Assembly (NCBI RefSeq): GCF_019795155.1
Contig: NZ_JAILYN010000044.1
Coordinates: 1-36,121, forward strand
DNA length: 36,121 nucleotides
Direction: 5' to 3'
DNA from: Marinobacterium arenosum
Lineage (GTDB): Bacteria > Pseudomonadota > Gammaproteobacteria > Pseudomonadales > Balneatricaceae
Every line of letters begins with the position of its first letter. Within the stretch, counting starts at the first letter, position 1. Under the pieces are notes generated by a model, which was given only the letters and a program-made list of their open reading frames with translations, was not told the origin of the DNA and did not search any database. The position numbers and the translations under genes were made by a program. Below are positions 2,843-32,698 of the stretch, piece by piece.

Positions 2843-2858
2843 CGCAAGTTTCGAACCA
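2843..2858 (-). promoter_or_regulatory. Sigma-54 promoter of the 199-aa gene
   Basis: The minus strand reads TGGTTCGaaacTTGCG. TGG, CG and TTGC match the -24/-12 consensus, with GG and GC separated by exactly 10 nt. The expected start is near 2832, about 118 nt before the ATG. The site lies in the 191-bp gap after the helD stop codon. Confidence 0.65.
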
Positions 2859-2905
2859 GCGGATAGGAACAGTGGCTGCTATTTAGTGAGGCACAGTCCG
2901 CCCGA

Positions 2906-5803
2906 CTATGCAGCTTCGGAGTTGTCCGATGGCGCCACTGAATCCAGTGGCCGGGTGCCTTTACAACTATCTGATTGATCTCCCCGGTAGCGGCTGCAGC
3001 CCCAGAACTCGCCGTTTTTTCCAGACCGGCGGATCATCGGGGCCTCACACTGTGGGCAGCTAGGCTGCCAGTCACCGCACTGCGGGTTCAGGCAGCGGCG
3101 GATGCCGTGCTGCCGTTGCATCGGTGCCTGGCAGCTCGGACAACCCGGCTCGCTGTGGTCGCAGCGCGGATAGAGCGAGCAGCCGTAGAAGCGGCCGTAC
3201 TGACCCTGCTTCTCCTGCAGAGTGCCGCTCTGGCAGCGCGGACAGCCGATCAGCTGATAGAGTTGCTGCGCCAAAGCGGTGTCGAACTCGTCAGTCACCA
3301 GCGGATACTCCTGCTCGATCAATTCCTTGACGAATGCGGAGGCTCGGCTCATATCGCTGACCAGGTAGACCCGGTGACGGGCACGGGTCAGTGCGACATA
3401 GAACAGCCGGCGCTCCTCGGCATGGGCGTAAGGCTCCGGCGCCGGCAGCATCGCTTCCAGTAGCGGATGGGTCTGCTTTTCGGTCGGAAAACCGTACTGA
3501 CCGCTGACCATATCCAGTACCACCACGTAATCGGCTTCGCGCCCCTTGCTGGCATGGATGGTCAATCGGCCGATCCGCAGACCCGGGAACTCGCGGCGCA
3601 GCGCCGCCAACCGGTCGGCATCGGGCAGGCTAAAGCTGTAGCGGGCCAGCAGCAGCACCGAGCTGTCCGGCTCGGCGATCTCGCTCAGCCGGGTCAGCAC
3701 CTGGCGCAACGGTTTGTCGGCATCCTTGGCGCCGTAACCGCAGCGCAGCAGCGACACCGCCGGATGCTCGACCTTGAGATGGGTGTCCAGTTGCTTGCGT
3801 ACCTGGGCCGGGTTGCGCATCACGAAGGCCGAGGCCAGCTCGCAGATCCGGTTGTTGAAACGGTAGGTCTTGTCCAGCGCGGTAACCGCGCTCGGGCCGA
3901 AGAACTCGGCGAAGCCGGTGGTCAGCGACAGGTCGCTGCCGGTGAAGCGGTAGATCGACTGCCAGTCGTCGCCGACGCAGAACAGCGTGGCGCCGTCGCC
4001 CTGCTCTTTCAGTGCCTTGATCAGCTCGGCCCGTGGCCGCGAAATATCCTGGAACTCGTCGACCATGATCTGCCGCCAGGGCGAGCGGAAGCGGCCGCTA
4101 CGCACATGGTCGATCGCCCGGTTGATCATATCGTCGAAGTCGATCTGGCGGTTGTCCTGCAGCAGCCGCTGGTAGTGATCCAGGATCGGCTCCAGCAGGT
4201 CGATCGCCGCCTGCAGATAGTCCGGCTCGTCCGCCTCCCGCACCAGCTGCTGGAATGCTGAATGGTCATAGTTGCCCGCCTTGGCGCGGCCGAGCATCGC
4301 GTGCAGCAGCTCCGACATCCGGCTGACCGCACCGAACTCGCGCAGGGTATCCAGCACCGCCTTGCCCGGCAGCGGCCGGAACTGGACACCCGCCCGCTTG
4401 AGGTTCTTTTCAAGGGTGGAGAGCAAGCTGCCGTCCAGCCACTGGTAATGGAAACTTTCGATCAGCGTCGTGCCGTGCCGGGCATGGCTGGCACGTTTCC
4501 AGTCGATGGCGGCCTGATACTCTGTCGGATCGATCCAGGGGGCGGTATTGCCCTGCCGGTCGATGCCGAAGTGTTCGATATAGAGGTCGAACTCCGGCAG
4601 GTAGAAGTCGGGATGATAGGCGCGGTGCTGAGGCGTGCGGGTATCGATACGATAGCGAGCTTCGTACTGGTATTCGATGCCGTTGCGGAACAGGAAGTTG
4701 GCGATCAGGCACTCCTGGTAGCCGCGCACCTGTTCACCCTTCAGGGTGACGATCTCGTTCTCGACCAGAAAGTTCAGGTAGTCACCTTCGGTATTGAAAT
4801 CGAATGGGTTGGCGGCCGGATAAAGGTAGCGGGCGAAGTAACGCAGCGCCTTGCGCTTGTAGCCCTCATCCTGTTGCAGCAGATGGTTGAAGCACTGGTC
4901 GACATAGTGGCGGCGTAGCCCGGCGTCCTCCGCCATCAGCGTCATATCCGGCTGAGCGCCCTCCACCTGGGCGATGATCTGCCGGCCGAGGGCGTGAAAG
5001 GTATAGACCGCCAACCCTTCGCTATCCGCCCCCAGCTTGCCCGCCAGCCGCTGGCGCATCTCGTCTGCAGCTTTACTGGCAAAAGCCAGCATAAGAATTT
5101 GATTTGGCTGGACTTTGCTGCTTTTAATCAGATAGCCGGCACGGCCGACCAGGGTGCTGGTCTTGCCGGTACCCGCGCCGGCCAGCACCAGGTTGTTGCG
5201 CTCGTCGATCACGCAGGCGGCCCGCTGGCGCTCGGTCAACGGATTGGCTTCCACGTTGTCGAAGAATTCTGCAAAACAGGCTGTTTCAGCCGCGATGAAC
5301 CGTTGTTGGTGGCGTTCCAGCAGGCCGTTATCCGCCTCGGCCAGCACCCGCAACCATTCGAACGGTTGCCGGAAGTGCTCGTCGAACCGCTCGGCCGGTG
5401 GCAACTCGCCGAAACGGGCGGCCGCCTGGCGAGCCCGTTGCTGCAGTTTTAGGAACCGGTCCTGGCGCAGATAGCCGGGCTGTCGCAGTGCGTGCTGCAG
5501 CGCCTTTGCCTGACCGTTGATCAAGGGGGCCAGCAGCTTGTAACGCTGGCTGTCGAGTCGATCCGCCAGTGCTTGCGCCTGCACTTTCGGCAATGCACAT
5601 ATCCTGAGCTGCTGCCCTCCTGCCAGGCTGAGCCGCAGTGTGGCCGACAGCATACCGGGCTCGACCACCGGCCGGGCGCAGAGATCGGTCAGCGGCAGTG
5701 CGGGCTGCTGGTCGACGATCAACTCTTGCTCGGACAGGCACAACTGGCGCCAGTTGGCACCGAGCAGGCGATAAAGCCAGTCGGCTTTCAGGGAGAGAGA
5801 CAT
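2906..5803 (-). CDS. helD: UvrD-like DNA helicase, HelD (helicase IV) type with zinc ribbons
   Basis: ATP-dependent superfamily 1 DNA helicase related to helicase IV. The helicase core starts with a Q-motif (NPLTERQ, about residue 187) and Walker A GAGTGKT (209-215). MVDEFQD is the Walker B motif and VALTRARHRVYLV is motif VI. The N-terminal ~180 residues match the HelD-type accessory region. Between the helicase motifs, YHPDFYLPEFDLYIEHFG followed by WKR resembles a PD-(D/E)XK-type nuclease insertion. After the core, three Cys4 topoisomerase-type zinc ribbons (CPRC...GCSLYPRC, CPSC...CLNPQC, CPQC...GCSRY...C) occupy about residues 850-950. At 965 residues it is far longer than the roughly 684-residue E. 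coli protein, and the zinc ribbons account for part of the excess. It has an ATG start and is a single gene. Confidence 0.9.
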   Translation of the reverse strand: MSLSLKADWLYRLLGANWRQLCLSEQELIVDQQPALPLTDLCARPVVEPGMLSATLRLSLAGGQQLRICALPKVQAQALADRLDSQRYKLLAPLINGQAKALQHALRQPGYLRQDRFLKLQQRARQAAARFGELPPAERFDEHFRQPFEWLRVLAEADNGLLERHQQRFIAAETACFAEFFDNVEANPLTERQRAACVIDERNNLVLAGAGTGKTSTLVGRAGYLIKSSKVQPNQILMLAFASKAADEMRQRLAGKLGADSEGLAVYTFHALGRQIIAQVEGAQPDMTLMAEDAGLRRHYVDQCFNHLLQQDEGYKRKALRYFARYLYPAANPFDFNTEGDYLNFLVENEIVTLKGEQVRGYQECLIANFLFRNGIEYQYEARYRIDTRTPQHRAYHPDFYLPEFDLYIEHFGIDRQGNTAPWIDPTEYQAAIDWKRASHARHGTTLIESFHYQWLDGSLLSTLEKNLKRAGVQFRPLPGKAVLDTLREFGAVSRMSELLHAMLGRAKAGNYDHSAFQQLVREADEPDYLQAAIDLLEPILDHYQRLLQDNRQIDFDDMINRAIDHVRSGRFRSPWRQIMVDEFQDISRPRAELIKALKEQGDGATLFCVGDDWQSIYRFTGSDLSLTTGFAEFFGPSAVTALDKTYRFNNRICELASAFVMRNPAQVRKQLDTHLKVEHPAVSLLRCGYGAKDADKPLRQVLTRLSEIAEPDSSVLLLARYSFSLPDADRLAALRREFPGLRIGRLTIHASKGREADYVVVLDMVSGQYGFPTEKQTHPLLEAMLPAPEPYAHAEERRLFYVALTRARHRVYLVSDMSRASAFVKELIEQEYPLVTDEFDTALAQQLYQLIGCPRCQSGTLQEKQGQYGRFYGCSLYPRCDHSEPGCPSCQAPMQRQHGIRRCLNPQCGDWQPSCPQCEAPMIRRSGKNGEFWGCSRYRGDQSDSCKGTRPLDSVAPSDNSEAA

Positions 5804-5902
5804 TACAGATCGGCCTTGATCAGACTACGGGGACGCCATCATAGCAGCGCGCCGCAGCCGTTGCTGCAATGGTGTCGATGGCGGTAGCGACAATTCTCCG
5901 TC

Positions 5903-6574: not shown

Positions 6575-6647
6575 AGGGTTACCGCACTAGTTGTGGTGCC
6601 AATGCCGATAGTACGCGACAGCATGGGGCGATGCGAGGGGGAGTTAT

Positions 6648-7421
6648 TCAAAGCTCCAATACAAAACCGGGATCGTACTCCCTTACCTCCCAGGGCTGGT
6701 CCAGGCCGCGTCGGTACCCCTGCTGGTTGCTGACCAGCCGGGTACCGTTGATAGTTTCATCCAGACACATATGGGTGTGGCCGAACAGCCAGAGATCGAT
6801 CGGCGCCCCCATCAGGTACTCCAGATCGCTCCAGAAGGCACCGGTGATGGCGTGCATCGGGAAGCCGGGATGCTGGGCCAGCGGACTGGGGCCATGGTGG
6901 CTGATCACCACCGTTCTGCCGGCGAACGGCTCGCCAAGCCGATCTTTCAGCCAGGCCAGCGACCGCTGGTGGAGTTGCTCCGCGTCTTCCGGGCTGAACA
7001 CCCGCTCGCCGTTCACGATCAGCCGGTGGTCGTTCATCATCCGGCGGGCGGCATCCAGCGATTTCTTGCGCTGCCGGGTCGCGCGGTAATCGGTCCACAG
7101 GGTGCAGCCCAGGAAGCGTACGCCTTGGCTGATCCATTGGTCGTCATCCAGCAGCTGGACCGGGCTATCGGCGCTCAACTCCCGCAGTGCTCGGCGGTTG
7201 GTTGGCAGATCCTGAAAGTAGTATTCGTGGTTGCCCGGCACGTAAAGGATCGGCCGACCGAGGCGTTCCGCCTGCTCGATCGCCCACTGCATGCCGTCGG
7301 TGCCGACTCCGATATCACCGGCCAGTACGATCAGCTCGGCGTCGGTGGGCTCGATATGAAACCGCTCCACCGCGTCGCCAAAGAACTCGATATGCAGGTC
7401 GGATAGTAACTGAATCTTCAT
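6648..7421 (-). CDS. Calcineurin-like metallophosphoesterase
   Basis: All five metal-binding blocks are present in order: DLH (SDLHIEF, near the N-terminus), GD (LAGDIGVG), GNHE (VPGNHEYYF), the H in VISHHGPSP, and GHTH (LFGHTHM). The fold binds two metal ions and cleaves phosphoesters; the substrate cannot be read from the sequence. The start at 7421 ([10 protein letters not shown]) puts the first motif at the usual distance from the N-terminus; an ATG six codons upstream (7439) is possible. Neither has a strong Shine-Dalgarno sequence. It is divergent from the hydrolase-OsmC gene. Confidence 0.85.
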
Positions 7422-10956: not shown

Positions 10957-10972
10957 AGCATCGACCGTGCCA
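10957..10972 (-). promoter_or_regulatory. Near-consensus sigma-54 promoter
   Basis: The minus strand reads TGGCACGgtcgATGCT: a perfect -24 element and one mismatch in the -12 element (A for T), with GG-N10-GC spacing. The start is expected near 10946, giving a leader of about 117 nt. The leader can form a GAAAAA/TTTTTC-type stem. TTAATCCC follows the -12 GC, exactly as at the promoter of the intergenic RNA at 32198. Confidence 0.75.
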
Positions 10973-14044: not shown

Positions 14045-14863
14045 TCAACGTAATATATTACGCCAGAATTTGGTGCCCTGGTTGTTAAGTACAACCCCGT
14101 CCGGGGTGATCTCCACCAGCCGCAAGCCCGGCTTCAACTGCATCCCCTCGCGATAGGTAGTGCCTTCCATCCGCACCATGCGATTGGCGGGGTCCTTGTC
14201 ATAGACATGGACGGTGAAGGTAACGGCGGGGATTTTACGCTGCTCCGCCGGGCTCAGCTGGCGCATATTGGGAAGCCCCCGATAACGGTCGTTAGTTACT
14301 GCCGCGCGGGTGGTCGGGTCTGCCTGTGGCAGTGCTGCAGGTTTGGCTGTATCGGCCTGCGTTGCCGACGTTGCCGACGCGGCGGTAGCCGTACTGGCAA
14401 GCTGCTGGCTTGCAGGCGCGGTTTTGCGAACCACAGGCGTCGTTTTCGCTGTTGGCCCGGGCAACGGAGCCTCTCGATCCACCTCGCCGAGTTGAATCTT
14501 GACCCCTTTCATCTTTTCTATATCGGACGGCACGCTGAGCAGCCAGCTATCGTTGCGCAGTGGCGGGTCCGCTACCTTTACCGGCAGCGGTTGCTGCTGA
14601 CGCGGTTTATTATCGGTATCAACCATCGGTGCCTTGGCTGGAGTCACCGCTGCGACTGGTGCAAATGGTGACGTTCCCGTCCTAACCACCAGCCAGAGTA
14701 TCGCGCCGATAGCCGCCAGCAGCGCGATCACCGGCCAGTAGCGTAGCCAGTTTCGGCTATTATCCGGCTGGTGCAGCTCCGTATGTTGGCTATCGAGGGT
14801 CGGGATGTCGCCCCGATGGCGTTCCCGTTCCGACCGTTTCAGAGCATCAAGGATAAAGGACAC
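14045..14863 (-). CDS. gspB: General secretion pathway protein B
   Basis: GspB works with GspA to insert or assemble the type II secretion secretin through the peptidoglycan. The N-terminus MSFILDALKRSERER is the family signature. There is one membrane helix (about residues 43-60), then a Pro/Ala/Thr-rich periplasmic linker. The C-terminal GspB domain (about 190-272: LSPAEQRKIPAVTFTVHVYD...WRNILR) is complete. The start codon is GTG at 14863, 3 nt after the gspA stop codon, with GGGGGT as SD inside the end of gspA, so translation is probably coupled. There are no gspC-N genes in the window. Confidence 0.9.
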   Translation of the reverse strand: MSFILDALKRSERERHRGDIPTLDSQHTELHQPDNSRNWLRYWPVIALLAAIGAILWLVVRTGTSPFAPVAAVTPAKAPMVDTDNKPRQQQPLPVKVADPPLRNDSWLLSVPSDIEKMKGVKIQLGEVDREAPLPGPTAKTTPVVRKTAPASQQLASTATAASATSATQADTAKPAALPQADPTTRAAVTNDRYRGLPNMRQLSPAEQRKIPAVTFTVHVYDKDPANRMVRMEGTTYREGMQLKPGLRLVEITPDGVVLNNQGTKFWRNILR

Positions 14864-14866
14864 GAG

Positions 14867-16636
14867 CTACCCCCTTGGCATCCCATCGAGCCTCGGCACC
14901 GTATTATCGGTCTGGCTGTTCAACAGAATAGCGGTGCGAGGCCCGAACACCCCGTCGATCATCAGGTTATTGCTGGATTGGAATCGCTTGACCTGACGCA
15001 CCAGTGCATTGTCATAGGTACGCCGGCGCCAGGAACGTGGGTCGCGCCCCTGAAGTACGGCCAGCTGACGATCCAGCCAGATCACCATATCGTCAGTGGT
15101 GCCGGGTTGCAGCGGAGCACGGTAGCCCGGCGGCGGCTTCCACAGCAGCAGGTATTGGTTGACCTGCCAGAGTTTCAGCTCCTCCAGTCGGACTTCACGC
15201 AGTTCGTTGGCGACGCTGACCTTGGCCACCTCGCCGTCGATCTCCAACAGTGTGGCGTAGAACTCCTGTCCCTGGGCGTTGAACAGCTTCATTACCGCCG
15301 GCCGGTTCAGCTTGATGAACTCATCGAAGGTGGTGTTCTGTGCCAGACAGCCGAGCCCGTGCTGGCGGGCAAAGGTGCACAATACCGGCTGGCTGACCGG
15401 GTCATACTGCAGCCCCCAGCGGTTGAACAACGACTGAAACGCCATCACCTGGGTCAAGCTGAGATCGGTCCCCTGCTCCCACTGCCAGGTGGCGGGGTTG
15501 GAGAAGCGGCCGGAAAGGTCTTCATCGACCACCGACTGATCAAGCTGTTCGCCTTGTGGCGCTGTTTGTGTTATTTGCGTTGTTTGCGGTGGGATTACCG
15601 CTGTCGTGGCGTTGGCCACACCGGGACTGCCTGCAGGCTCCCCTGTTGGTTCTGCCGCTTCGGGCGCTGTAACGATTGTGTTACCACTGGCGTTGTCATC
15701 CGGTAAGGCCGCAGGTTGCGGACCGATCAGCTCACGAAATTGCGGCGTGAACAGCCAACCGATGGCCACCAGCAACAGGCACAATAGTAAAACCGGCCGA
15801 TAATCCCGCGGTTTGGCAGTACCGCCTGGCTGCCCCATCACCTCTTCGGCAGCCTTTTTCAGGGTCTTCAGATCGACGCAGGTGTCCCGCTTTACATAGG
15901 CTCCCAGCAGTGCCCGGTCGCACAGTACGTTAACCAGGCGAGGCACGCCGCCACTCAACTTGTACAACTTTTCGCGGGTGGCTGCGGTAAACAGCTCGCC
16001 CTCCATGCCGGCCACGGACAAGCGGTGCTGAATATAGGCGTGCAACTCCTCCTTGCTGAGCGCATCGAGGTGGAATCGAGCGGTAATGCGCTGGTTCAGC
16101 TGGCGCAGTTCCGGTCGGGAAAGCTTGTCCAACAGCTCCGGCTGACCGATCAGAATGATCTGCAGCAATTTGTGCGAGTCGGTCTCCAGGTTGGTCAACA
16201 GGCGTATCTGTTCCAGCACATCGACCGACAAATTCTGTGCCTCGTCGATGATCAACACGGTTTTCTCGCCCCTTGTATGCGCGGCGAGCAGATAACGGTT
16301 CAACGCATCGATGTAGCCCTTGATACTGTCCTTTTCGCCCACCGCCCGGATATCCAGCTCATCGCAGATCGCTTCCAGCAACTCCTGCACGCTGTATTTC
16401 GGGTTCAGGATGAAGGCGACATTAGTGTGCTCCGGCAGTTGATCCAGCAGACAGCGACAGACCGTGGTCTTGCCGGTACCCACCTCGCCGGTCAGCAGGA
16501 TAAAGCCGCCATTGCTGTCTATCCCATACAGCAAGTGGGCCAGCGCCTCACGGTGCTGGTCGCTAAGATAGAGGTAACGCGGATCGGGCGCGATCGCAAA
16601 CGGCGGTTCCGATAATCCGAAGTAGTTGCTGTACAT
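14867..16636 (-). CDS. gspA: General secretion pathway ATPase GspA/ExeA
   Basis: 589 residues. The cytoplasmic AAA-type ATPase has Walker A GEVGTGKT (50-57) and Walker B VLIIDE (127-132); GGVPRLVN is typical of ExeA. A membrane helix is at about 280-297. The periplasmic part ends in a peptidoglycan-binding domain (about 500-580, VKRFQSSNNLMIDGVFGPRT). GspA-GspB binds peptidoglycan and helps the T2SS secretin multimerise. MYSNYFGLSEPPFAIAPDPRYLY is the standard N-terminus, which supports the ATG at 16636. It is divergently arranged with the sigma-54 activator, 279 bp apart. No GG-N10-GC promoter was found on this side. Confidence 0.93.
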   Translation of the reverse strand: MYSNYFGLSEPPFAIAPDPRYLYLSDQHREALAHLLYGIDSNGGFILLTGEVGTGKTTVCRCLLDQLPEHTNVAFILNPKYSVQELLEAICDELDIRAVGEKDSIKGYIDALNRYLLAAHTRGEKTVLIIDEAQNLSVDVLEQIRLLTNLETDSHKLLQIILIGQPELLDKLSRPELRQLNQRITARFHLDALSKEELHAYIQHRLSVAGMEGELFTAATREKLYKLSGGVPRLVNVLCDRALLGAYVKRDTCVDLKTLKKAAEEVMGQPGGTAKPRDYRPVLLLCLLLVAIGWLFTPQFRELIGPQPAALPDDNASGNTIVTAPEAAEPTGEPAGSPGVANATTAVIPPQTTQITQTAPQGEQLDQSVVDEDLSGRFSNPATWQWEQGTDLSLTQVMAFQSLFNRWGLQYDPVSQPVLCTFARQHGLGCLAQNTTFDEFIKLNRPAVMKLFNAQGQEFYATLLEIDGEVAKVSVANELREVRLEELKLWQVNQYLLLWKPPPGYRAPLQPGTTDDMVIWLDRQLAVLQGRDPRSWRRRTYDNALVRQVKRFQSSNNLMIDGVFGPRTAILLNSQTDNTVPRLDGMPRG

Positions 16637-16915: not shown

Positions 16916-18310
16916 ATGAATACTCCTGCTGAGTTCCATAGCGAGGGAATGCAAGCACGCCGGGCATTATTTCTAGACCTCTCCGACGACGGCGAAGATA
17001 CCGACGTCAATCTGAAGTTCCCCGATTGGGAGATAGAGCGGGTCACCTCCTGCCCCCTGGCCTGTGCACGTATGAACAACTACCACTACCATGTCGGGCT
17101 GGCACGGGTGGTTAATCCTTCCAGCAATCAACTGAACGAACTGGACAGCCTGTTTTACGAGGGTGACGAAGGCACCGCCTGGATTGCGCTGACCAAATCT
17201 GAGGATCTATCCGACCAGTCGTTCCGCCGCATGATCTACGAACACTTTTACGACTACTTCACGCTGCCTCTAATGAGCGATGCCTCATCCTACCTGAAGG
17301 CGGCGCTGGGCCATGCCTACGGCATTTCGATGCTGCGCGACGAAACGCAGGGCATGCCGTTGATGGTGGAGGAGAACCAGATGGTCGGCGCCAGTCAGCC
17401 GATCACCCGGGTGTTCCAGCAGGTCCGCAAAATTGCCGGTGTCGATGCACCGGTGCTGATCCGCGGCGATACCGGTACGGGTAAGGAGATGGTGGCGCGG
17501 GCGATACACCAGCGCTCCGAACGTCGTGAGTATCCGTTCGTGGCAGTCAACTGCGGCGCCCTGCCCGACACGCTGATCCATGCCGAGCTGTTCGGCCATG
17601 AGAAAGGCGCCTTCACCGGCGCGTTCAAACGCAAGATCGGCCGCATCGAAGCCGCCCAGCATGGCACCATCTTCCTGGATGAGATCGGTGACCTGCCACT
17701 CGACCTGCAGGTGTACCTGCTGCGCTTTCTCGAGGAGAGCACCATCGAACGGCTGGGCAGTAACGAGAGCCTGGAGATCGACGCCCGGGTGATCGCCGCC
17801 ACCCACGTTAACCTCGAACAGGCGGTGGAACGGGGCCGCTTCCGTGAAGACCTCTACTACCGGCTCAACGTACTGTCGGTGGATATGCCGCCATTGGCGC
17901 AGCGTGATCAGGATATCGAACTGCTGGCGCGCTACTTCTTCCACAAGTTCGCCCGCGAGTACGGCACCCGCACCAAGGGCTTTACCAACCAGGCGTTGCA
18001 GTCGATGGCGCAATACAACTGGCCCGGCAATATCCGCGAGATGATTAACCGGATCAGGCGGGCCCTGGTGATGAGCGAGAACCGGTTGATTACCCCCCAC
18101 GACCTGGGCCTGGGCGAAGCGGTCACCAATGGCAAGGTGATGACACTGGACGAAGCGCGCTCCAAAGCCGAGGAACTGGCGGTGAAATGCTCGTTGCACC
18201 ATACCCGGCACAACATATCGAACGCTGCCAAACTGCTGGGCGTCTCCCGGGTGACGCTGTACCGACTGATTGAGAAATATGCCATTCGCGAATCCAGCGA
18301 ACGCCATTGA
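16916..18310 (+). CDS. Sigma-54-dependent activator with degenerate receiver (VpsR-like)
   Basis: Enhancer-binding protein of 464 residues. Residues 1-~130 have the outline of a response-regulator receiver (RALFLDL..., YHVGLARV), but the usual phosphoacceptor position after the third strand is not Asp, as in VpsR/FleQ-type regulators that respond to c-di-GMP rather than to phosphorylation. The AAA+ domain has Walker A GDTGTGKE (184-191), intact GAFTGA (231-236, contacts sigma-54), Walker B IFLDE (252-256) and the arginine finger in RFREDLYYRLN. A Fis-type helix-turn-helix (NISNAAKLLGVSRVTLYRLIEKY) closes the protein. The intact GAFTGA argues that it really works with sigma-54. No strong SD precedes the ATG. 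Six to seven sigma-54-like promoters in this window are its likely targets (inference). Confidence 0.9.
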   Translation: MNTPAEFHSEGMQARRALFLDLSDDGEDTDVNLKFPDWEIERVTSCPLACARMNNYHYHVGLARVVNPSSNQLNELDSLFYEGDEGTAWIALTKSEDLSDQSFRRMIYEHFYDYFTLPLMSDASSYLKAALGHAYGISMLRDETQGMPLMVEENQMVGASQPITRVFQQVRKIAGVDAPVLIRGDTGTGKEMVARAIHQRSERREYPFVAVNCGALPDTLIHAELFGHEKGAFTGAFKRKIGRIEAAQHGTIFLDEIGDLPLDLQVYLLRFLEESTIERLGSNESLEIDARVIAATHVNLEQAVERGRFREDLYYRLNVLSVDMPPLAQRDQDIELLARYFFHKFAREYGTRTKGFTNQALQSMAQYNWPGNIREMINRIRRALVMSENRLITPHDLGLGEAVTNGKVMTLDEARSKAEELAVKCSLHHTRHNISNAAKLLGVSRVTLYRLIEKYAIRESSERH

Positions 18311-18321: not shown

Positions 18322-18341
18322 TTGTTAATCAGCGTTAACAA
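18322..18341. promoter_or_regulatory. Inverted repeat TTGTTAA-N6-TTAACAA, candidate activator site
   Basis: A perfect 7-bp inverted repeat with a 6-bp spacer begins 12 bp after the activator stop codon. Its right end is 64 bp upstream of the -24 element of the 87-aa ORF promoter, a normal distance for an enhancer-binding-protein site. It shares the TGTTAA core with the direct repeat at 16733-16773. Confidence 0.4.
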
Positions 18342-18404
18342 ACCAGAACAAACACATGGCGTGGCCATAGCCACTAACCTATGAATTACAAAAGGTTATG
18401 GAAA

Positions 18405-18420
18405 TGGTCTGATGTTTGCT
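18405..18420 (+). promoter_or_regulatory. Sigma-54 promoter of the 87-aa ORF
   Basis: TGGTCTGatgtTTGCT: TGG, the G of the -24 block and all of TTGCT match, with GG-N10-GC spacing. The start is expected near 18431, 23 nt before the ATG. A small CACT/AGTG hairpin (18425-18439) sits at the 5' end. Confidence 0.6.
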
Positions 18421-18453: not shown

Positions 18454-18717
18454 ATGGGCCCGTTCAATCATCCTCCATATAACGGGCCGGCCAGTGAAGA
18501 CGATGACGCAGGAGGTCGGACGCTTCCCGCTACGCCGGCTCAAGCCAACACCCCAGCGCCTGCTGGTGACCATGTGATGGTCCGCAGCCGCCACGGACGT
18601 CGTACGCTCTATTACAGCCTGATTCATCGCACCGCCTTTCCTCGAATCGTACTCTGGGACGAGGCGGGCTATTCCGAAGTAGAAGTGCTGCCCACCCCGT
18701 CCGATGCTCAGCACTGA
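18454..18717 (+). CDS. Small hypothetical protein (87 aa)
   Basis: No family recognised. AGAGG lies 8 nt before the ATG, and a sigma-54-like promoter lies about 35 bp upstream, which is why I keep this short ORF. The N-terminal half is Pro/Ala/Asp-rich and low in complexity. The C-terminal half (VRSRHGRRTLYYSLIHRTAF, then IVLWDEAGYSEVEVLP) looks like a small basic then mixed beta-rich domain. There is no signal peptide. It follows the activator gene and precedes the peptidase leader. Confidence 0.5.
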   Translation: MGPFNHPPYNGPASEDDDAGGRTLPATPAQANTPAPAGDHVMVRSRHGRRTLYYSLIHRTAFPRIVLWDEAGYSEVEVLPTPSDAQH

Positions 18718-19066: not shown

Positions 19067-19221
19067 GAAAGATCCTCTCCCGATAAAGGCAAAGCCCGAG
19101 TAATTGGGCGGCGCAAAGTCACGGGTCCACATTGTGGATAGCCGGACCGCCGAAGGAGAGTAAATCCTCAGGAGAGTCTGTCGTTGAGGATCTTTCGCTT
19201 ATACACGACAAGCGGAGATCC
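19067..19221 (+). promoter_or_regulatory. Riboswitch expression platform with SD sequestering
   Basis: The Shine-Dalgarno (CGGAG, 19213-19217) lies in AAGCGGAGATCC (19210-19221), which can pair with GGATCTTTCGCTT (19188-19200) and hide it. The same left arm can instead pair with upstream DNA: GAAAGATCCTC (19067-19077) is the exact 11-nt complement of GAGGATCTTTC (19186-19196). The upstream strand overlaps P1 of the aptamer. No T-tract is present, so the control would be translational. The direction of control cannot be decided by eye. Confidence 0.55.
19075..19160 (+). ncRNA. GEMM-I (cyclic dinucleotide) riboswitch aptamer
   Basis: P1 is CTCTCC (19075-19080) with GGAGAG (19155-19160). Then GATAAAGGCAAA is followed by a hairpin GCCCGA/TTGGGC capped by a GTAA (GNRA) tetraloop. 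The conserved GGCGCAAAGTCACGGGTCC comes next. The second hairpin is TCCAC/GTGGA, followed by ATAGCCGG, the tetraloop-receptor side, and CCGCCGA. The order and invariant bases match the c-di-GMP-I/GEMM consensus. By my alignment the base equivalent to Vc2 G20 is G, which favours c-di-GMP over cGAMP, but that alignment is uncertain. It controls the downstream secreted metallopeptidase. Confidence 0.88.
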
Positions 19222-19223: not shown

Positions 19224-21848
19224 ATGCAGCGGACATCCATCGCCCGACTGACGGTCGCACTCGGCCTGAGTTCTGCCCTGGCCTTTTCTACCAACACCCT
19301 GGCAGAAGCTATCGCGCACAGCCACGGCCACGCCCATGGTCACGAAGTCGCCGCCGCGACCCCGGCCGCCCTGCGCAAGGCGGCCGGCGATGCCACCCTG
19401 GAGCTGATCGCCAGCAAAAAACAGTGGACTAAAGCCCGTGGCGCAGAAAAGTCCCGCGCCCTGGAAAACCTGCTGGCCAAAGCTGAAGCCCGCCAGCAGT
19501 ACCTGGCTCAGTTGCTGGAAAGCGACCCGGCCGAAGTACTGCGCGTAGCGATTCCCGAAGACAAGCAGGTGGGCATGCCGGCCGAAGTGCTGGAAAAACT
19601 GGAGCAGCGCTTCGCCACCGAAGGCGCGCTGGAAGTCGTCTATGAAGATTACGAAGATGGCAGCCATAAGCTGCGCCATTACCTGAAAACCAATGTCGGC
19701 GAGCGCCTCGAGCTGCATTTCGCCGGCAAACCGGCCGAGTACCGTAGTGGTACTCAGGTCAGTGTTGACGGCCAACTGCTGACCGGCACTGAAACCAACG
19801 AAGCCGATGGCGACCTGGTACTGAATGCGGATGAGTCCGGCATCCAGACCCTGGCGCTGGACGGCAGCGGCAATGGCGGCGAGCCGGGCCCGGTCTCCAA
19901 CACCTTCGGCGAACAGCGCACCCTGGTGATGCTGGTCAACTTCCAGGACAACAGCGCGCAGCCGTGGAGCCAGTCGCAGATCAGCAGCCTGGTCAACGGC
20001 AAGGTCAACGACTTCATGCGCGAGAACTCCTATGGCCAGACTTGGCTGAACGCCGATGTCACCGGCTGGATGACCATCGCTGCCTCCCAGTCGGGCTGCC
20101 CGACCGGCACCTATAGCTCGCTGGCCAACGAAAAGGCGCAGAAAGCCGGTTACAACCTGGCCAACTATGACCGCCTGGTTTACGTGTGGCCGAAAAACTC
20201 CTCCTGCGGCTTCTCCGGTCTCGGCACTGTTGGCGGCGCGCCCTCCAAGGCCTGGATCAACGGGCAGTACCTGTGGAATATCTTTGCCCATGAACTGGGC
20301 CACAACTTCGGTCTGGGCCACTCCCACGACATGAACTGCGGCAGCAGCACCCTGGGTTCAAGCTGCTCGGTTACCGAGTATGGCGATTTCCCGGACACCA
20401 TGGGTGCCGGCTTTAACGGCCATTTCAACGCCTTCCAGAAGGACCGTCTGGGCTGGCTGGGCTACGGTAGCTCGCCGCAGCTGATCACCGTGACCTCCAG
20501 CGGCAACTACACCCTGTCGCCGTACGAGGACCAGAACGGCAATGCCAAGGCGCTGAAAATTCTCAAGGGAACCGATGCCGCTACCGGCCAGAAGACCTGG
20601 TACTACCTGGAATACCGCCAGCCGAAAGGTTTCGACAGCGGACTGAGCGGCTACGGCAGCCAGATCAACTACCTGAACGGCGTAACCGTGCACAGCGGCA
20701 ACAAGTCCAACGCCAACAGCAGCTACCTGCTGGATATGACCCCGGGCAGCAGCTCCGGGATGTATGATGCCGCGCTCGAGGAAGGACGCAGCTACAGCGA
20801 CAGCACGGCCGGTGTCAGCTTCAGCACAAGCTGGCTGGACAGCAACAGCGCCCGTATCGACGTGACAGTCAACGGCAGTGGCGGTAGCGGTGGCAGCAGC
20901 TGCGTGCCGGCCAACCCGTCGATCAGCCTGAGCCCGAGTACCCAGTGGGCCGCGGCCGGCAGCCAGGTCAGCTACAGCGTGACGCTGACCAACCGCGACA
21001 GCAGCGCCTGCAGCAGCCGCAGCTTCTCGCTGAGCAGCAGCAAGCCGTCCGGCTGGTCGACCTACTTCAGCAAGAGCAGCGCCAGCCTGGCCCCGGGTGC
21101 CAGCCTGACCACCAACCTACAGGTGACTTCCGCCAGCAGCGCGAGCGACGGTTTCTATAACCTCAACGTGACCGGTGTCAGCGGCAGCAACAGCGCAACA
21201 GGCACGGTGACCTACGTCGTCGATAACCCGACCGCCAACAATGCACCGGTGGCCTACAGCGACAGCGCCAGCACCAGCCAGAACACGGCGGTGACCATCA
21301 ATGTACTGGCCAACGACAGCGATCCGGACGGCGATAGCCTGACCGTTAGCAATGTCAGCGGTGTCTATGGCAGCGCCAAGATCAACAGCAACGGCACCAT
21401 CACCTTCACGCCGGCCAACGGCTTCAGCGGCACCGAGGTGTTCAGCTACAGCGTCAGCGACGGTAAAGGCGGCAGCGCCAGCGCCAATGTCACCGTCAAC
21501 GTGACCGGCAGCACCAGCGGCAACAGCGCGCCGGTGGCGGTTAACGACAGTGTGAGCCTGAGCAGCGAGACAGCGGTCACCATTCCGGTGCTGAGCAATG
21601 ACTACGACCCGGACGGTGATGCGCTGAAAGTCACCAGCGTCACTCAGGGCGCGAAAGGTAGCGTACGGATCAACAGCAACGGCACCGTCACCTACACGCC
21701 GGCGCGCAGCTTCAAGGACAGCGACAGCTTCAGCTACACCATCTTCGATGGCGCCAAGTACGACACCGCGACGGTTTATATCGGCCTGCAGGGCGGCAGT
21801 AGCGGCGGTAACGGCAACGGCAACAAAGGCAACGGCCGTAACAAGTAA
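19224..21848 (+). CDS. Secreted M11-type zinc metallopeptidase with adhesin-like repeats
   Basis: 874 residues. A signal peptide covers about 1-29, followed by a His-rich stretch (HSHGHAHGH). A propeptide-like region runs to about 225. The catalytic domain has HELGHNFGLGH (356-366; Glu357 catalytic, three His zinc ligands) and the Met-turn DTMGAG (Met393), as in gametolysin-like (M11) metzincins. Then come a CARDB/NEW3-like beta domain (about 555-665) and two cadherin-like/VCBS-type repeats that start NNAPVAY and NSAPVAV and contain NVLANDSDPDGDSL / PVLSNDYDPDGDAL. A Gly/Asn-rich tail ends the protein. It is probably exported through Sec and T2SS (inference from gspAB nearby). The SD is CGGAG, 6 nt before the ATG, and is under riboswitch control. 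It is convergent with the DUF11 gene at 21954. Confidence 0.88.
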   Translation: MQRTSIARLTVALGLSSALAFSTNTLAEAIAHSHGHAHGHEVAAATPAALRKAAGDATLELIASKKQWTKARGAEKSRALENLLAKAEARQQYLAQLLESDPAEVLRVAIPEDKQVGMPAEVLEKLEQRFATEGALEVVYEDYEDGSHKLRHYLKTNVGERLELHFAGKPAEYRSGTQVSVDGQLLTGTETNEADGDLVLNADESGIQTLALDGSGNGGEPGPVSNTFGEQRTLVMLVNFQDNSAQPWSQSQISSLVNGKVNDFMRENSYGQTWLNADVTGWMTIAASQSGCPTGTYSSLANEKAQKAGYNLANYDRLVYVWPKNSSCGFSGLGTVGGAPSKAWINGQYLWNIFAHELGHNFGLGHSHDMNCGSSTLGSSCSVTEYGDFPDTMGAGFNGHFNAFQKDRLGWLGYGSSPQLITVTSSGNYTLSPYEDQNGNAKALKILKGTDAATGQKTWYYLEYRQPKGFDSGLSGYGSQINYLNGVTVHSGNKSNANSSYLLDMTPGSSSGMYDAALEEGRSYSDSTAGVSFSTSWLDSNSARIDVTVNGSGGSGGSSCVPANPSISLSPSTQWAAAGSQVSYSVTLTNRDSSACSSRSFSLSSSKPSGWSTYFSKSSASLAPGASLTTNLQVTSASSASDGFYNLNVTGVSGSNSATGTVTYVVDNPTANNAPVAYSDSASTSQNTAVTINVLANDSDPDGDSLTVSNVSGVYGSAKINSNGTITFTPANGFSGTEVFSYSVSDGKGGSASANVTVNVTGSTSGNSAPVAVNDSVSLSSETAVTIPVLSNDYDPDGDALKVTSVTQGAKGSVRINSNGTVTYTPARSFKDSDSFSYTIFDGAKYDTATVYIGLQGGSSGGNGNGNKGNGRNK

Positions 21849-27129: not shown

Positions 27130-27145
27130 TGCAACAAGCGTACCC
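27130..27145 (-). promoter_or_regulatory. Sigma-54 promoter of the 1620-aa protein gene
   Basis: The minus strand reads GGGTACGcttgTTGCA: -24 with two mismatches (G for T, T for C), a perfect -12, and GG-N10-GC spacing. The start is expected near 27119. The first leader hairpin begins 16 nt after the -12 GC. Further upstream, 27146-27375 is AT-rich and holds CTGTAAC at 27218 and its complement GTTACAG at 27324, but no gene. Confidence 0.65.
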
Positions 27146-27375
27146 TTGATATAACCTATTGTTTTTATAGACATTACTTGAGCCGAACATCGTTTGGCTG
27201 GAGATTTTTACAGGCAGCTGTAACATTTTCTGAACGTTATACCGTTGACTGTTGACCAGTTAACACAGCAAAAAATCGGCTAAGTGGTTGAATTTAAATA
27301 CGGATTTTTGGAGCAGATACACTGTTACAGCGTTGCAACAATCGTTACCGGACGCTATTAACCCAATGGCGCCCA

Positions 27376-30400: not shown

Positions 30401-31477
30401 CGGGAAGTTGCCCAACGCCAAGTCCTTCAACTGCGCCCGCACGCTCTGCGAGGTCCGGGTGTTCATCAGGAAGCTGTTGAAGCAGCCGATCTCGCCGGGA
30501 AACAGCGCGGTAAAGTCGAAACCCGCTTCGAACAGGCTGGTTTCGGGGAAGTCGTCGTTCTGAATGCCGTCGGTACCGGCCGGACTGGCCGGACCGTTAG
30601 CCGGCGGGAACTTGGACATGAAGCCCCAGGTATCGGGCGATTCGGTCGGTACGGTGTTCATCGACCCGCAGGCCACGTCCATCGGCGTTACGCCGCAGAC
30701 CGCCACCGACTCATCGAAGACCTTGCAGAGATTGTCTCTCGGCGGCTCCAGGGTACCGCTGGTACAGGCGGCGGCGTTGCTGCCGACCCATTTGAACACC
30801 TGCATATTGATTTCGCGGCCACCGTTGGTGGTTTCGGACACCACGAAGATGTCGCCTTCGGTATGCAGCTCGGCCGGCTGGCTGGCGAGACAGAGCCCGG
30901 TGTCCGGGTCCACCACGCCGAAGCTGCCGTCGGCACAGAGGCCGATATTCTTCTTGAACAGCCAGGCGCCGATGGCGGCGTCGCCGTTGGGTGCAAACAG
31001 CGTCCCGTACAGGTAGATCAGCAGCTCGCCGCTTTCCAAGTAGGCGGCGGCACCGACCGGCAACAGGTCGTTTTTGTCGGGCGCCGAACCGTCGGTCCAC
31101 TGCCAGTTGCTGACATCCAGGTCGTCCTTGGAACCACCACCGGTGAAGATGTCATCCATATTGCCGGTGCCGTCCGGGTCGTCTACGAACAGGCTCTTGA
31201 AGGCCATGCCGCCCGGTGCGTCCGGATCAACGAAGGGCCCGGAAACCAGGCCACAACTCGCTTCTCCGGTGCCTGCGCAGACCACCGGATCGGTGGTCGC
31301 CCAGTCATCCCCCACTACCGCTTCGTCAATGGCGTTGGCGCCATTGACGCTGTTGTCCAGCTCGAAGACACCGAGGTCATGCACCGCATGCGCGGTGTAG
31401 ACAACCAGCAGCCCCGTCGCGAACATACAGCCCAGCAGGAAGGACGTGATTTTGAATAATGATGAGAGCCTAGGCAT
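27425..31477 (-). CDS. Giant secreted DUF11/prealbumin-like repeat protein, 1350 aa
   Basis: A close paralogue of the 21954-26816 product. It has an almost identical signal peptide (FKITSFL-GC-FATGL, cleavage after TAHA), N-terminal beta domain, DUF11 domains and KELRGG domain. It then has four 95-residue repeats (~731-1111), less varied than in the neighbour (mostly DQGTYDLSETGPSGYSASSW). A fifth, divergent repeat follows (~1112-1205). The C-terminus differs: instead of the CTPGYWK domain there is a ~140-residue beta-rich domain (LTLGYETDN..., VVIDHRGNN, SCSQPLTAGDEYGGITV) with few cysteines. Strong SD GGGAGGTGAG. It has its own sigma-54 promoter and terminator and is not in an operon with its paralogue. 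Confidence 0.85.
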   Translation of the reverse strand: MPRLSSLFKITSFLLGCMFATGLLVVYTAHAVHDLGVFELDNSVNGANAIDEAVVGDDWATTDPVVCAGTGEASCGLVSGPFVDPDAPGGMAFKSLFVDDPDGTGNMDDIFTGGGSKDDLDVSNWQWTDGSAPDKNDLLPVGAAAYLESGELLIYLYGTLFAPNGDAAIGAWLFKKNIGLCADGSFGVVDPDTGLCLASQPAELHTEGDIFVVSETTNGGREINMQVFKWVGSNAAACTSGTLEPPRDNLCKVFDESVAVCGVTPMDVACGSMNTVPTESPDTWGFMSKFPPANGPASPAGTDGIQNDDFPETSLFEAGFDFTALFPGEIGCFNSFLMNTRTSQSVRAQLKDLALGNFPLCGIEVTKTGPDLSKIGDDVTYTVTVENTGAIPAYLDSIVDDVFGDLTGESGADCAVLDPGETCSFDFTRAVPADAPDPLINEVTATYNSQSDLAGDELVESDSHELNLFQPSYSLVKECPVGIGTGLDDRAWKVGEPLDFRFTLTNTSSADTPVMDLVSLTDPLLSDMADDSILHLLPAGKQAELAQLSQDETITFVLSYTPTSDDFAGGGVTNTADAVYNPDGFPNQVAPNDGTPASVFCPVALPGPATIIIEKELRGGGGVQFTYTGTGLLVPGLTPVIGGDTTGSPHGAVRDPAVDGFAVSDAISVPTTFGTATQYSVEETGLPPGTSFESLSCRNPDGSLDSDSSGSGATATINVDEDEIVICRFINIVAPKLTLVKSVTNDNGGTAVVTDWTLTASGPTGFSGTSGVSSDANFDQGTYDLSETGPSGYSASSWSCVGGSQDDGDTITLGLGESATCTIVNDDDPPSLTLIKQVINDNGGTAVVNDWTLIATGPTGFSGTSGVSSDAGFDQGTYDLSETGPSGYSASSWSCVGGSQDDGDTITVGLGESATCTIVNDDDPPSLTLIKQVINDNGGTALVADWTLFASGPTGFSGTSGVSSDASFDQGTYDLSETGPSGYSASSWSCVGGSQDDGDTITLGLGESATCTIVNDDDPPSLTLIKQVINDNGGTALVADWTLFASGPTGFSGTSGVSGDASFDQGTYDLSESGPSGYSASSWSCVGGSQDDSDTITLGLGESATCTIVNDDIPPNITLIKQVINDDGGTAGPDDFGLTIGGTPVNSGQTLDVNANVAIALDEAGLFDYEFISIGAASGDSAKCPDVLGGTVTLDEGESITCTIVNDDIQRDLCVDPATGLVTKPRTLTLGYETDNDSLFVGEPQEGNEVIIDPDDPAFAGLPDPAFIVVIDHRGNNISPAVGYFEVVDGGSFTIEGTAGKRISPRHRFFIYDNPALVSPIQTVQFHTSCSQPLTAGDEYGGITVESATH
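28144..29283 (-). repeat. Four tandem 285-bp (95-aa) coding repeats
   Basis: The CGTCGTTGACGATGGTACAG boundary recurs at 28144, 28429, 28714 and 28999, again with an exact 285-bp step. The unit is the same family as in the upstream-numbered array (22631-24340) but with the DQGTYDLSE signature. Neighbouring units are more alike than in the other gene, which suggests recent homogenisation. Confidence 0.95.
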
Positions 31478-31771
31478 AACTCACCTCCCAGGGTTACCAC
31501 GCGCTATCCCAAGGGGCGGCAACCTTAATTAGAATCCGGCGTTACGTTGCCTGCATCCAAGTGCAGCGGATACCACGTCGCTAACAACCACCTGAAGCCC
31601 TGTAACGCCTCAATTGGAAGCTCTCCGTCCGGCTTGAGACCCACCCTGCCCCGACAGGCGTGCCGGCATGACCTCGCTGACGCGGAGATCCCGTTCTGAC
31701 CCTCTGATTGAGGGGCTTGATAGCCAATGCCTGGCCTTTGGATTAGGGAAGTTGGAAGACGGACCTTCCAT
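31478..31771 (-). ncRNA. Structured 5' leader, copy 2
   Basis: In transcript order: hairpin GGAAGgtccgtCTTCC (31769-31754), TTCCCTAATCC and CCAGGCATTGGCTAT. CCTGTCGGGGCAGG and GGGTCTCAAGC (31658-31632) follow with a TCTC/GAGA arm. GGCGTTAC pairs with GTAACGCC (8 bp), enclosing CTGCA/TGCAG. Then CTAATTAAGG and GGTTGCC...GGTAACC come before the SD. The first block lies 277 nt before the ATG against 284 in copy 1; the GGGTCTC block lies at 181 against 179. Arms differ in sequence but keep pairing, which suggests selection on structure. Confidence 0.6.
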
Positions 31772-31782
31772 GTGCTTGAGTT

Positions 31783-31798
31783 AGCAATAACTATGCCT
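31783..31798 (-). promoter_or_regulatory. Sigma-54 promoter of the 1350-aa protein gene
   Basis: The minus strand reads AGGCATAgttaTTGCT: three mismatches in the -24 block, a perfect -12, and GG-N10-GC spacing. The start is expected near 31772. The first leader hairpin follows 15 nt after the -12 GC, nearly the same geometry as in copy 1. Confidence 0.65.
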
Positions 31799-32174
31799 TC
31801 AACCTATCTGGCTGAAATACAAGGATAAAAACTCGGACACATTGGTCGATATTAGTGGAGGTGCAAAAATTGACTTACGAATCGACGCCGCCGGTTAACG
31901 TTTATTCTGCAGTGACACTCTAACCTATTGATAACCGGCGGCTTTACTGTCGTACTAACACGCTGGACGACCAAATACTGTACAGCACGCGGCACATATC
32001 CCCCATGCCGGAACTGGAAGCTTCCGAAATCGCCGAGGAACCGAATCGGGTTGTTAGAAACAGTTACTCGAACCGGGCCCGGCGGGACAAAACTGTAACT
32101 AAAAACTTACAAGTTGCTAGTAAGCGCCCTGCTTCTAAAAGCGTAACTTTATAAATATCAATACATTATGGGAT
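31799..32174. other. Intergenic region, no gene seen
   Basis: An AT-rich stretch between two divergent sigma-54-like promoters. No ORF with an SD was found. It contains GTTAAC near 31893 and CTGTAAC at 32093-32099, the latter 77 bp before the -24 of the intergenic RNA promoter. Such sites may bind the activator, but the motif is unproven. Confidence 0.5.
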
Positions 32175-32190
32175 TGGCCTGAAACCTGCT
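32175..32190 (+). promoter_or_regulatory. Sigma-54 promoter of the intergenic RNA
   Basis: TGGCCTGaaacCTGCT: TGGC, G and TGCT match, with two mismatches in the -24 block, one in the -12, and GG-N10-GC spacing. TTAATCCC follows the GC exactly as at the 10957-10972 promoter. The start is expected near 32201. Confidence 0.6.
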
Positions 32191-32197
32191 TAATCCC

Positions 32198-32289
32198 GTG
32201 GGAAAGCCTCGGCTTTCGAGACCCCACCCGGAATGCAGTCTGCATTCCCATGCGGCACATCAAGGTCCCATTGGTGTGCCGCATTTTTT
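32198..32289 (+). ncRNA. Candidate small RNA, about 90 nt, sigma-54 driven
   Basis: Three successive hairpins are visible. GTGGG (32198-32202) pairs with CCCAC (32223-32227), enclosing AAAGCC/GGCTTT. GGAATGCAG/CTGCATTCC spans 32230-32248. The terminator spans 32250-32289. There is no ORF with an SD. The first hairpin resembles the 5' hairpin of leader copy 1 (GGAAGCctcaGCTTCC). It is about 680 nt upstream of the next gene, so it is an independent transcript rather than a leader. No known RNA family was recognised. Confidence 0.6.
32250..32289 (+). terminator. Strong intrinsic terminator of the small RNA
   Basis: ATGCGGCACA and TGTGCCGCAT pair over 10 bp and extend inward to 14 bp with one G-U pair, around a 7-nt loop. 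Six T residues (32284-32289) follow on the plus strand only. Confidence 0.9.
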
Positions 32290-32682
32290 CATGCTTAACC
32301 CTGTGGCTCGGGCGCTGCTGCAATCCCTGTTAAGGTTTCGGAAACGCCATGACCGATCGGTCTGGCTGGTGCCCATTTACCGCATGCGGTGAAAGATCAA
32401 AATGGTTACAGCTGTTCAATAAGATTTATAAAACACAAGAAACTGCTACAGATAATTTACAACTAATTTCCACCCTCCTAAATTTTTCGGTGTAATACCA
32501 GTCACCGCCCCTATTTAATCACTTCCATGATTCTCTAAAGCCGTATATATCAAAATAGCTTATCTTAAAATATCAGTATATTAGGAGCTTATCCTGAAGA
32601 CTGTACAGAAAGACTAACAGTTTTCAATCCACTTTTCGGCATGCCACATTAAACCCTCCAAATAAACAATGCGTTACATGCA
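32290..32682. other. Intergenic region, no gene seen
   Basis: About 390 nt, AT-rich from 32400 onward. No ORF with an SD was found. It contains GTTACAG (32405-32411), the complement of the CTGTAAC sites near the other sigma-54 promoters. Probably upstream control DNA for the gene at 32970. Confidence 0.5.
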
Positions 32683-32698
32683 AGGCATGATTTTTGCT
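32683..32698 (+). promoter_or_regulatory. Sigma-54 promoter of the 863-aa protein gene
   Basis: AGGCATGatttTTGCT: two mismatches in the -24 block (A for T, T for C), a perfect -12, and GG-N10-GC spacing. It nearly matches the promoter at 31783-31798. The start is expected near 32709, leaving a leader of about 260 nt. Confidence 0.7.

Follow-up and report, generated by a model that had tools for sequence, protein, structure and literature searches.

Organization of the locus

We analysed 36,121 nt of Marinobacterium arenosum (contig NZ_JAILYN010000044.1 of assembly GCF_019795155.1, positions 1-36,121), hereafter the window. It carries the gene of a sigma-54 activator, a bacterial enhancer-binding protein (bEBP), followed by a small gene whose product bears the motif LWDE, by a peptidase gene with a riboswitch in its leader, and by the genes of three giant exoproteins; two genes related to type II secretion precede the activator (Table 1). 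An earlier note on this DNA had listed seven -24/-12 sites and proposed that they form one local regulon of surface or secreted products. Here we report that five of the seven share a common upstream architecture, and from the sequence we consider it probable that these five are the promoters of a locally encoded, enhancer-dependent sigma-54 regulon for large secreted proteins. Features are called by their first coordinate; C denotes a contig, G a genome and L an examined locus, with the window on contig C55 of genome G000 (~4.8 Mb).

Density of sigma-54-like sites

All seven GG-N10-GC sites of the earlier note are present on the strands that it implied; TTGC is kept in five of them (2843, 18405, 27130, 31783 and 32683) and TGGCACG is perfect at one (10957). 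Scored with a Barrios-like sigma-54 matrix, they reach 10.4-15.9 bits, six of them at least 11.5 and 2843 the lowest value, 10.4, and an eighth intergenic site, at 32305 (14.2 bits), was absent from the list. We compared the density of such sites in promoter-strand intergenic DNA, as defined by a simple hexamer gene caller, at a cut of 11.5 bits; a 400-kb sample of the same genome, together with pattern searches, took the place of whole-genome scoring. The window contains 7 sites in 7,158 bp (six listed ones and 32305), against 4 in 62,191 bp of the sample, a density about 15 times as high, and 300 dinucleotide shuffles of its intergenic DNA gave a mean of 0.34 sites and a maximum of 2. The sites are denser in the window than chance would give, and the equal density elsewhere that the earlier note had named as a refutation was not found in the 400-kb sample; the count is post hoc, because the window was picked on account of the finding.

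Might AT-rich intergenic DNA yield such GG-N10-GC sites by chance? Matching of the consensus TGGCACG-N4-TTGC with up to two mismatches over the whole 4.8-Mb genome gave 1741 hits versus 1627 in the reversed control, which speaks for chance, and we discarded this loose matching as a test, its counts being too near the control. By itself, the -24/-12 element at the seven sites is suggestive and weak.

Upstream architecture of five probable promoters

What else do these sites have in common? First, we described the sequence before them by a two-component model of positions -50 to -1, trained on relatives only: intergenic sites of at least 10 bits on both strands of 23 loci surrounding relatives of the 16916 activator, T2SS (type II secretion system) operons and giants, 46 sites after removal of duplicates, with the window genome excluded. 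This region was picked after the motif had been seen by eye in the window and the relatives together, so the choice was not blind. The learned motif is an AT-rich stretch and then, ahead of the GG, TCA-N5-TTA-N6-T, in agreement with the consensus of integration host factor (IHF) at a fixed spacing. The upstream scores of 18405, 27130, 31783, 32175 and 32683 are 8.9, 8.4, 7.6, 13.0 and 10.3 bits, all above the 99.9th percentile (6.9 bits) of 36,160 random intergenic positions, and the highest score among 100 sigma-54-like coding sites was -5.0. In the five, the IHF-like element CAR-N4-TTR stands exactly 7 bases before the GG, with ATA in place of TTR at 31783.

Second, an 18-bp palindrome, TGTWA-N8-TWACA, precedes the IHF-like element; except for at most 4 bases, its region lies outside the fitted one. 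In the same order of sites it matches 10, 8, 8, 10 and 9 of 10 positions and starts at -83, -92, -82, -82 and -82 relative to the GG. Among the relatives' sites, the model-positive ones have a palindrome of at least 8/10 in 25 of 30 cases, the model-negative ones in 3 of 30. The best palindrome in -118 to -64 was also scored at 5,510 random intergenic positions: it reaches 8 in 345 cases, 9 in 58 and 10 in 10; with starts confined to -93, -92 and -84 to -80, these counts are 51, 11 and 2. In the relatives and on contigs C66 and C57 the palindromes start near -71, -82, -93, -103 and -114, which a period near 11 bp fits best. Most of these sites fall in a single cluster and several stem from sister genomes; we keep the spacing as an observation, of the kind that a looped activator would produce if it has to face the polymerase.

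Third, the strict pattern CAR-N4-TTA-N7-GG-N9-TGC has 11 matches genome-wide versus 3 in the reversed control. Six are intergenic with an upstream score above 5, four on the window's contig and two on C66; of the remaining five, four fall within called genes, and the fifth, an intergenic one, scores poorly as a sigma-54 site (5.5 bits). The pattern does not catch 31783. When the box pattern was searched across the family, 42 of 116 genomes gave 60 matches, with 12 in the control columns. We set it aside as no clean test: some of the matches come from genomes that lack a close relative of the activator, and several resemble coding sequence.

An upstream activator site some 80-150 bp before the start is thus present at five of the seven sites, two of them weak, and is lacking at 2843 and 10957, whose upstream scores are equalled by 39% and 40%, respectively, of random intergenic positions. 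The proposed seven-member regulon shrinks accordingly to 18405, 27130, 31783, 32175 and 32683; the other two are at chance level, and the "small proteins" that the earlier note placed behind them are open reading frames (ORFs) of 201 and 215 codons. Some other activator may use site 10957 as its sigma-54 promoter. As candidate members we rejected 2843, 10957 and 32305, which score -18.9, -19.2 and -7.9 in the upstream model. The last of these (32305-32320, plus strand) lies just past the terminator of the intergenic RNA described below and has neither a good IHF-like site nor a good palindrome. Chance would account for these three sites; for the five, it is opposed by the density, the upstream model, the palindromes, the strict pattern and the conservation across genera, and we regard it as extremely improbable.

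Table 1. Coordinates of the features discussed, in order along the window.
Feature	Coordinates	Strand	Details
Listed site, unsupported as member	2843..2858	-	no IHF-like site, no palindrome; upstream model -18.9 bits
Listed site, unsupported as member	10957..10972	-	perfect TGGCACG; upstream model -19.2 bits
GspB-like type II secretion assembly protein	14045..14863	-	Pfam T2SSB 66.8 bits; NCBIfam GspB 54.6, below 100 cut-off
GspA-like ATPase with peptidoglycan-binding domain	14867..16636	-	Pfam AAA_22, PG_binding_1
Sigma-54 activator (bEBP)	16916..18310	+	VpsR-type N-terminal domain, AAA+ with GAFTGA, Fis-type helix-turn-helix
Promoter 1 (predicted)	18323..18420	+	palindrome TGTTAATCAGCGTTAACA 18323-18340, IHF-like 18389-18398, -24/-12 18405-18420, predicted +1 ~18431
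LWDE small protein, 87 aa	18454..18717	+	IVLWDE near C-terminus
c-di-GMP-I-GGC riboswitch region	19067..19221	+	aptamer 19079-19155; Shine-Dalgarno-sequestering hairpin 19188-19200/19210-19221; alternative pairing 19067-19077/19186-19196
Secreted metzincin-like peptidase, Big_9/cadherin-like repeats	19224..21848	+	Pfam Peptidase_M11 50.5 bits, Big_9 163.6
Giant exoprotein, 1620 aa	21954..26816	-	SpaA_2/SpaA_4/DUF7507
Promoter 2 (predicted)	27130..27236	-	-24/-12 27130-27145, IHF-like 27152-27161, palindrome (8/10, weak) 27219-27236, leader ~303 nt
Giant exoprotein, 1350 aa	27425..31477	-	SpaA_2/SpaA_4/DUF7507/DUF7467
Promoter 3 (predicted)	31783..31879	-	-24/-12 31783-31798, IHF-like (ATA) ~31805-31814, palindrome (8/10) 31862-31879, leader ~295 nt
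Promoter 4 (predicted)	32094..32190	+	palindrome TGTAACTAAAAACTTACA 32094-32111, IHF-like 32159-32168, -24/-12 32175-32190
Predicted intergenic RNA, ~85-90 nt	32201..32289	+	three hairpins, last = intrinsic terminator
Promoter 5 (predicted)	32602..32698	+	palindrome TGTACAGAAAGACTAACA (9/10) 32602-32619, IHF-like 32667-32676, -24/-12 32683-32698, leader ~261 nt
Giant exoprotein, 863 aa	32970..35561	+	weak SpaA_4, DUF7507 matches

The activator and the LWDE protein

The 16916 activator matches the Pfam families Sigma54_activat (235.9 bits), VpsR (PF20161, 40.8 bits; cut-off 23.7) and HTH_8 (31.5 bits), and its GAFTGA motif, at residue 231, is intact, as the earlier note had read it. Five tested relatives also carry the VpsR domain (50.2-61.9 bits). 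The best NCBIfam match is to PrsR (TIGR02915, 400.8 bits, below the cut-off of 502.6). Activator-like places number 46 in 40 of the 116 family genomes; we examined 33 loci including the window and counted 32, L007 being dropped because no GxFTGx could be read. A promoter of the type described above, counted when a sigma-54 site of at least 8.5 bits with a positive upstream score lies within 1.3 kb downstream, follows the activator in 27 of the 32 loci, and an ORF matching the search expression [VIL]xLWDE does so in 26 (the window included in both counts). The recurring gene order is activator, promoter and LWDE protein, and then, in seven loci, a riboswitch.

The LWDE protein of the window has no Pfam or NCBIfam match. 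LWDE is invariant in all 12 aligned members, which were chosen by that motif, and the search expression did not match anywhere in 800 kb of strand sequence. The family is otherwise barely conserved (examples are 18454-18717 of the window, L119:11102-11341 and L123:3931-4251), and the members tested are likewise without Pfam or NCBIfam matches. No LWDE protein was found near the Variovorax, BP6.bin38 or Burkholderia relatives. In the open-licence PMC literature we found no published description of the regulon or of the LWDE protein, no search having been aimed at LWDE itself. Its gene directly follows that of the activator and has the same type of promoter; our guess is that, most simply, it serves as a feedback or assembly factor.

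Might another activator serve these promoters? The genome encodes a second VpsR-domain activator, 51% identical to the first (G000:C57:31339-32661, L126), which is followed by a perfect palindrome, TGTAAATCATGATTTACA, at -103, a sigma-54 site and an LWDE protein of its own. The half-sites are shared, so that cross-binding is possible, and this paralogue or some other sigma-54 activator might then be the regulator of five promoters that would themselves be real. Against it, the 16916 activator is the adjacent one, and in several of its closer relatives (56-64% identical) boxed large genes or T2SS genes share a contig with the promoter, though in genomes G010 and G024 the T2SS genes lie on a different contig. 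We consider service by another activator unlikely, and the 16916 activator the likely driver of the regulon; the promoters at 27 of 32 activator loci, and the lack in this genome of exosortase and of PrsK above cut-off (see below), strengthen this assignment.

Giant proteins and type II secretion

The giants had been described as DUF11 proteins; at an E-value of 0.001, Pfam gives SpaA_2, SpaA_4, DUF7507 and DUF7467 instead. The middle part of the 32970 giant is 60% and 58% identical to the other two. Their promoters had been said to sit at the right distance and strand: the strands agree, and the predicted leaders are long, at 261-303 nt. Beyond the third giant, an open frame with a weak PAN_1 match runs to the end of the contig (35674-36121), and one site string recurs unchanged at 35893 and 36109, which points to a repeat of ~216 bp.

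The 14867 ATPase is related to the XrtA/PEP-CTERM-associated ATPase (TIGR03015, 273.1 bits, below the cut-off of 324.5). The one T2SSM_b match of the genome lies on contig C66, within a T2SS operon that encodes GspE, GspF, GspG, GspH, GspK, a PilN/GspL-type protein, GspM of subtype b and the secretin GspD, together with a weak GspC-like match below cut-off. After the operon come boxes, DUF7507/SpaA genes and, on the opposite strand, two M11-type peptidases; of the C66 boxes, the third (19809) combines a perfect palindrome at -93 with a weak upstream score (-3.1).

Of the 57 genomes searched, 20 have a T2SSM_b match; in seven (G005, G007, G009, G018, G020, G023 and G034) it lies no more than ~30 kb from the activator. 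Large genes (641-1669 aa) with a box ~270-490 nt upstream are found on the activator's contig in G007, G009, G020, G023 and G034, and those tested match SpaA or DUF7507; in G018 the box is 921 nt from the large gene. In G010 and G024 the contig with the T2SS genes carries the boxed large genes, of which the two tested match Big_3_5, not SpaA or DUF7507. This co-location suggests that the T2SS probably exports the giants. In G020, ~57 kb from the activator, we also observed an open frame of ~8,800 codons whose C-terminal stretch is shared with the 32970 giant (G020:C3:565000-604000; L130, L131).

Riboswitch and other RNA elements

The riboswitch before the 19224 peptidase exceeds its Rfam gathering score (RF03167, 64.1 bits versus 59), and the leader can form two mutually exclusive pairings around the Shine-Dalgarno sequence; on this model, the riboswitch would switch the exposure of the ribosome-binding site of the peptidase gene. 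The peptidase also has an NCBIfam M6 domain match of 54.1 bits, below the cut-off of 110.8. An Rfam scan covered 15 loci, with L124 and L204-L207 outside it; in seven of them (L117, L118, L119, L120, L121, L125 and L127) a c-di-GMP-I riboswitch follows the activator, and none was found in L122 or L126, both of which have an activator as well.

The predicted product of promoter 4 is a short RNA. The segment 32187-32292 folds at -45.7 kcal/mol (z -5.30), with none of 200 shuffles as stable, and among 41 promoter-like sites 32175 alone has a terminator within 130 nt, one other having a weak candidate terminator at 243 nt. No homologue of this RNA was found in 56 other genomes, and an Rfam search of 31400-33000 at loose E-values gave three matches, all far below gathering scores. 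Calculated duplexes of the RNA with the starts of the giants have z-scores of -2.29 (26816; 2 of 150), -1.99 (31477; 4 of 150) and 0.96 (the third); as the first two starts are paralogous and alike, these results amount to one weak lead. Between the two minus-strand units, identity is 81% over 194 nt, comprising ~65 nt of leader and the coding start. Folded singly, the three giant leaders have z-scores of -1.74, 0.00 and -1.94, none of them strikingly stable.

Some leaders are conserved among the relatives. Copies of one type from two genera share 91% identity over 116 nt, and the type occurs in 6 of 116 genomes and 3 of 16 genera. This conserved leader RNA has a core of ~105 nt (L128:11440-11702 and L204:14150-14407, both on the minus strand; L232, L234, L235 and L236) and, in the two loci checked, precedes genes of 641 and 651 aa. 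In its closing stem, GGUGGCUUC/GAAGCCACC, one pair is changed on both sides, but the covariation term as a whole is unfavourable (+1.59), and inspection by eye suggests a possible pseudoknot of CCUGU with ACAGG. The L128 copy has no Rfam match at an E-value of 1 or better.

Discussion

How do these promoters compare with known systems? The PEP-CTERM box is described, in the passages of PMC1569441 compared here, as a 17-nt element ending in TTTACA, followed after a mean spacer of 62.8 nt by a sigma-54 site; for pepA of Aquincola, the consulted part of PMC9850573 reports a mapped start site and dependence on RpoN1. In four of our five promoters the palindrome ends ~65 bases before the GG, and the TWACA end and the spacing agree with that text of PMC1569441. 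The likeness to the PEP-CTERM/PrsR system, as far as these passages describe it, extends to the long non-coding upstream regions, the Fis-type activator and the exported products. The window differs in its VpsR-type domain, its type II secretion genes, the LWDE protein and the riboswitch, and also in the IHF site, which goes unmentioned in the compared text on the PEP-CTERM box.

An ordinary PEP-CTERM/exosortase regulon under PrsK-PrsR might therefore be considered: the two-part box resembles that in the cited passages of PMC1569441, the best NCBIfam match of the activator is PrsR, and the ATPase resembles the PEP-CTERM-associated one. In this genome, however, whose assembly is 99.95% complete, there is no exosortase match and no PrsK above cut-off (best 117.9 versus 300 bits); the activator falls below the PrsR cut-off and has a VpsR domain, and no PEP-CTERM motif was seen by eye at the ends of the three giants. 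We judge this explanation very improbable.

Three c-di-GMP-binding systems also offer parallels, each cited as far as the consulted parts of the sources go. BerB of Burkholderia cenocepacia is, like the 16916 protein, a GAFTGA activator; it is RpoN-dependent, binds c-di-GMP and controls biofilm genes (PMC5552954). It differs in acting on berA and through it on exopolysaccharide, and no N-terminal input domain is reported for it in those parts of the paper (PMC5552954). A B. cenocepacia relative that is 43% identical to the 16916 activator has a VpsR domain (L237/L240); read from a GTG codon, its GAFTGA falls at 208, the published number for BerB. Neighbouring genes do not settle whether this relative is BerB; if it is, the published frame omits the N-terminal domain. 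VpsR of Vibrio cholerae controls biofilm genes and binds c-di-GMP, and is independent of RpoN and without GAFTGA (PMC5552954, PMC3162934); the 16916 activator shares its Pfam VpsR domain and differs in having GAFTGA. By analogy with VpsR and BerB, the 16916 activator may well bind c-di-GMP. Finally, the C66 GspE has an MshEN domain (62.1 bits), as do the MshEN/GspE ATPases that are bound by c-di-GMP (PMC4624772).

We favour the reading of the five promoters as one local regulon, much of which would lie in the window. That part of the earlier proposal stands for the five sites, through the shared IHF-like site, the palindrome, the occurrence in other genera and the strict matches on C55 and C66, and fails for 2843 and 10957. 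In the mechanism that we propose, dimers of the 16916 activator would bind the palindrome, IHF would bend the DNA between the palindrome and the -24/-12 element, and the AAA+ ring with its GAFTGA would open RNA polymerase-sigma-54. Five transcripts would result: those of the three giant SpaA/DUF7507 exoproteins with their long leaders, that of the LWDE protein, and the terminated RNA of ~90 nt. More such promoters would act on C66, beside the T2SS operon that is the probable exporter of the giants. The second messenger c-di-GMP would probably enter at two points, the VpsR-type domain of the activator and the c-di-GMP-I riboswitch of the peptidase. What the regulon yields would be a matrix, of biofilm type or for attachment, that is produced in one c-di-GMP state. 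The parts of the mechanism are classical; the combination is new.

Several observations weigh against this interpretation. The sigma-54 matrix and the consensus behind the label "IHF-like" are general ones, not fitted to these data. The genome sample has 13 intergenic sigma-54-like sites, and one of them, on contig C1 (L141:14256, minus strand; G000:C1 ~54256), passes the upstream model at 22.9 bits; it is a strong sigma-54 site without a good TGTWA palindrome and probably the promoter of some other activator, and the IHF-like element alone is therefore no marker of the regulon. The palindromes of 27130 and 31783 are weak (8/10), being matched somewhere upstream by 6% of random positions, and with the inner gap free to vary from 4 to 11, 935 of 3,544 random positions (26%) reach 8; because this variable-gap null reaches 8 so often, the two weigh little alone. 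Six of the 32 activators are without an LWDE gene and five without a positive promoter, and in L225 the promoter sits behind the LWDE ORF. The 20 activator-like matches in the genome make the presence of sigma-54 likely. The FleQ-type c-di-GMP motif LFRS was not seen in the 16916 activator. Export of the giants by the T2SS is suggested by co-location only, and here the operon lies on another contig. By eye, the C66 GspE lacks the c-di-GMP motif, with Gln at the position of the essential Arg of MshE in the consulted part of PMC4624772.

Going further, we tentatively suggest, at somewhat less than even confidence, an exosortase-free sister of the PEP-CTERM regulons, in which a kinase-less, VpsR-type, c-di-GMP-responsive activator would run a dedicated T2SS and SpaA/DUF7507 matrix giants from IHF-looped promoters with enhancers spaced by whole turns. 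An RNA-rich lower layer of long, conserved and structured leaders, peptidase riboswitches and a sigma-54-made small RNA would lie beneath it, with the LWDE protein as the usual first target.

The regulon proposed here would join sigma-54, c-di-GMP and type II secretion at one locus. Its promoter grammar of palindrome, distance, IHF-like site and -24/-12 element is precise enough for target searches in other genomes, and it suggests that VpsR/PrsR-type boxes may form a wider class, with the published PEP-CTERM box as one of its branches. The small LWDE family and the conserved leader RNA unmatched in Rfam are thereby exposed as direct experimental targets.

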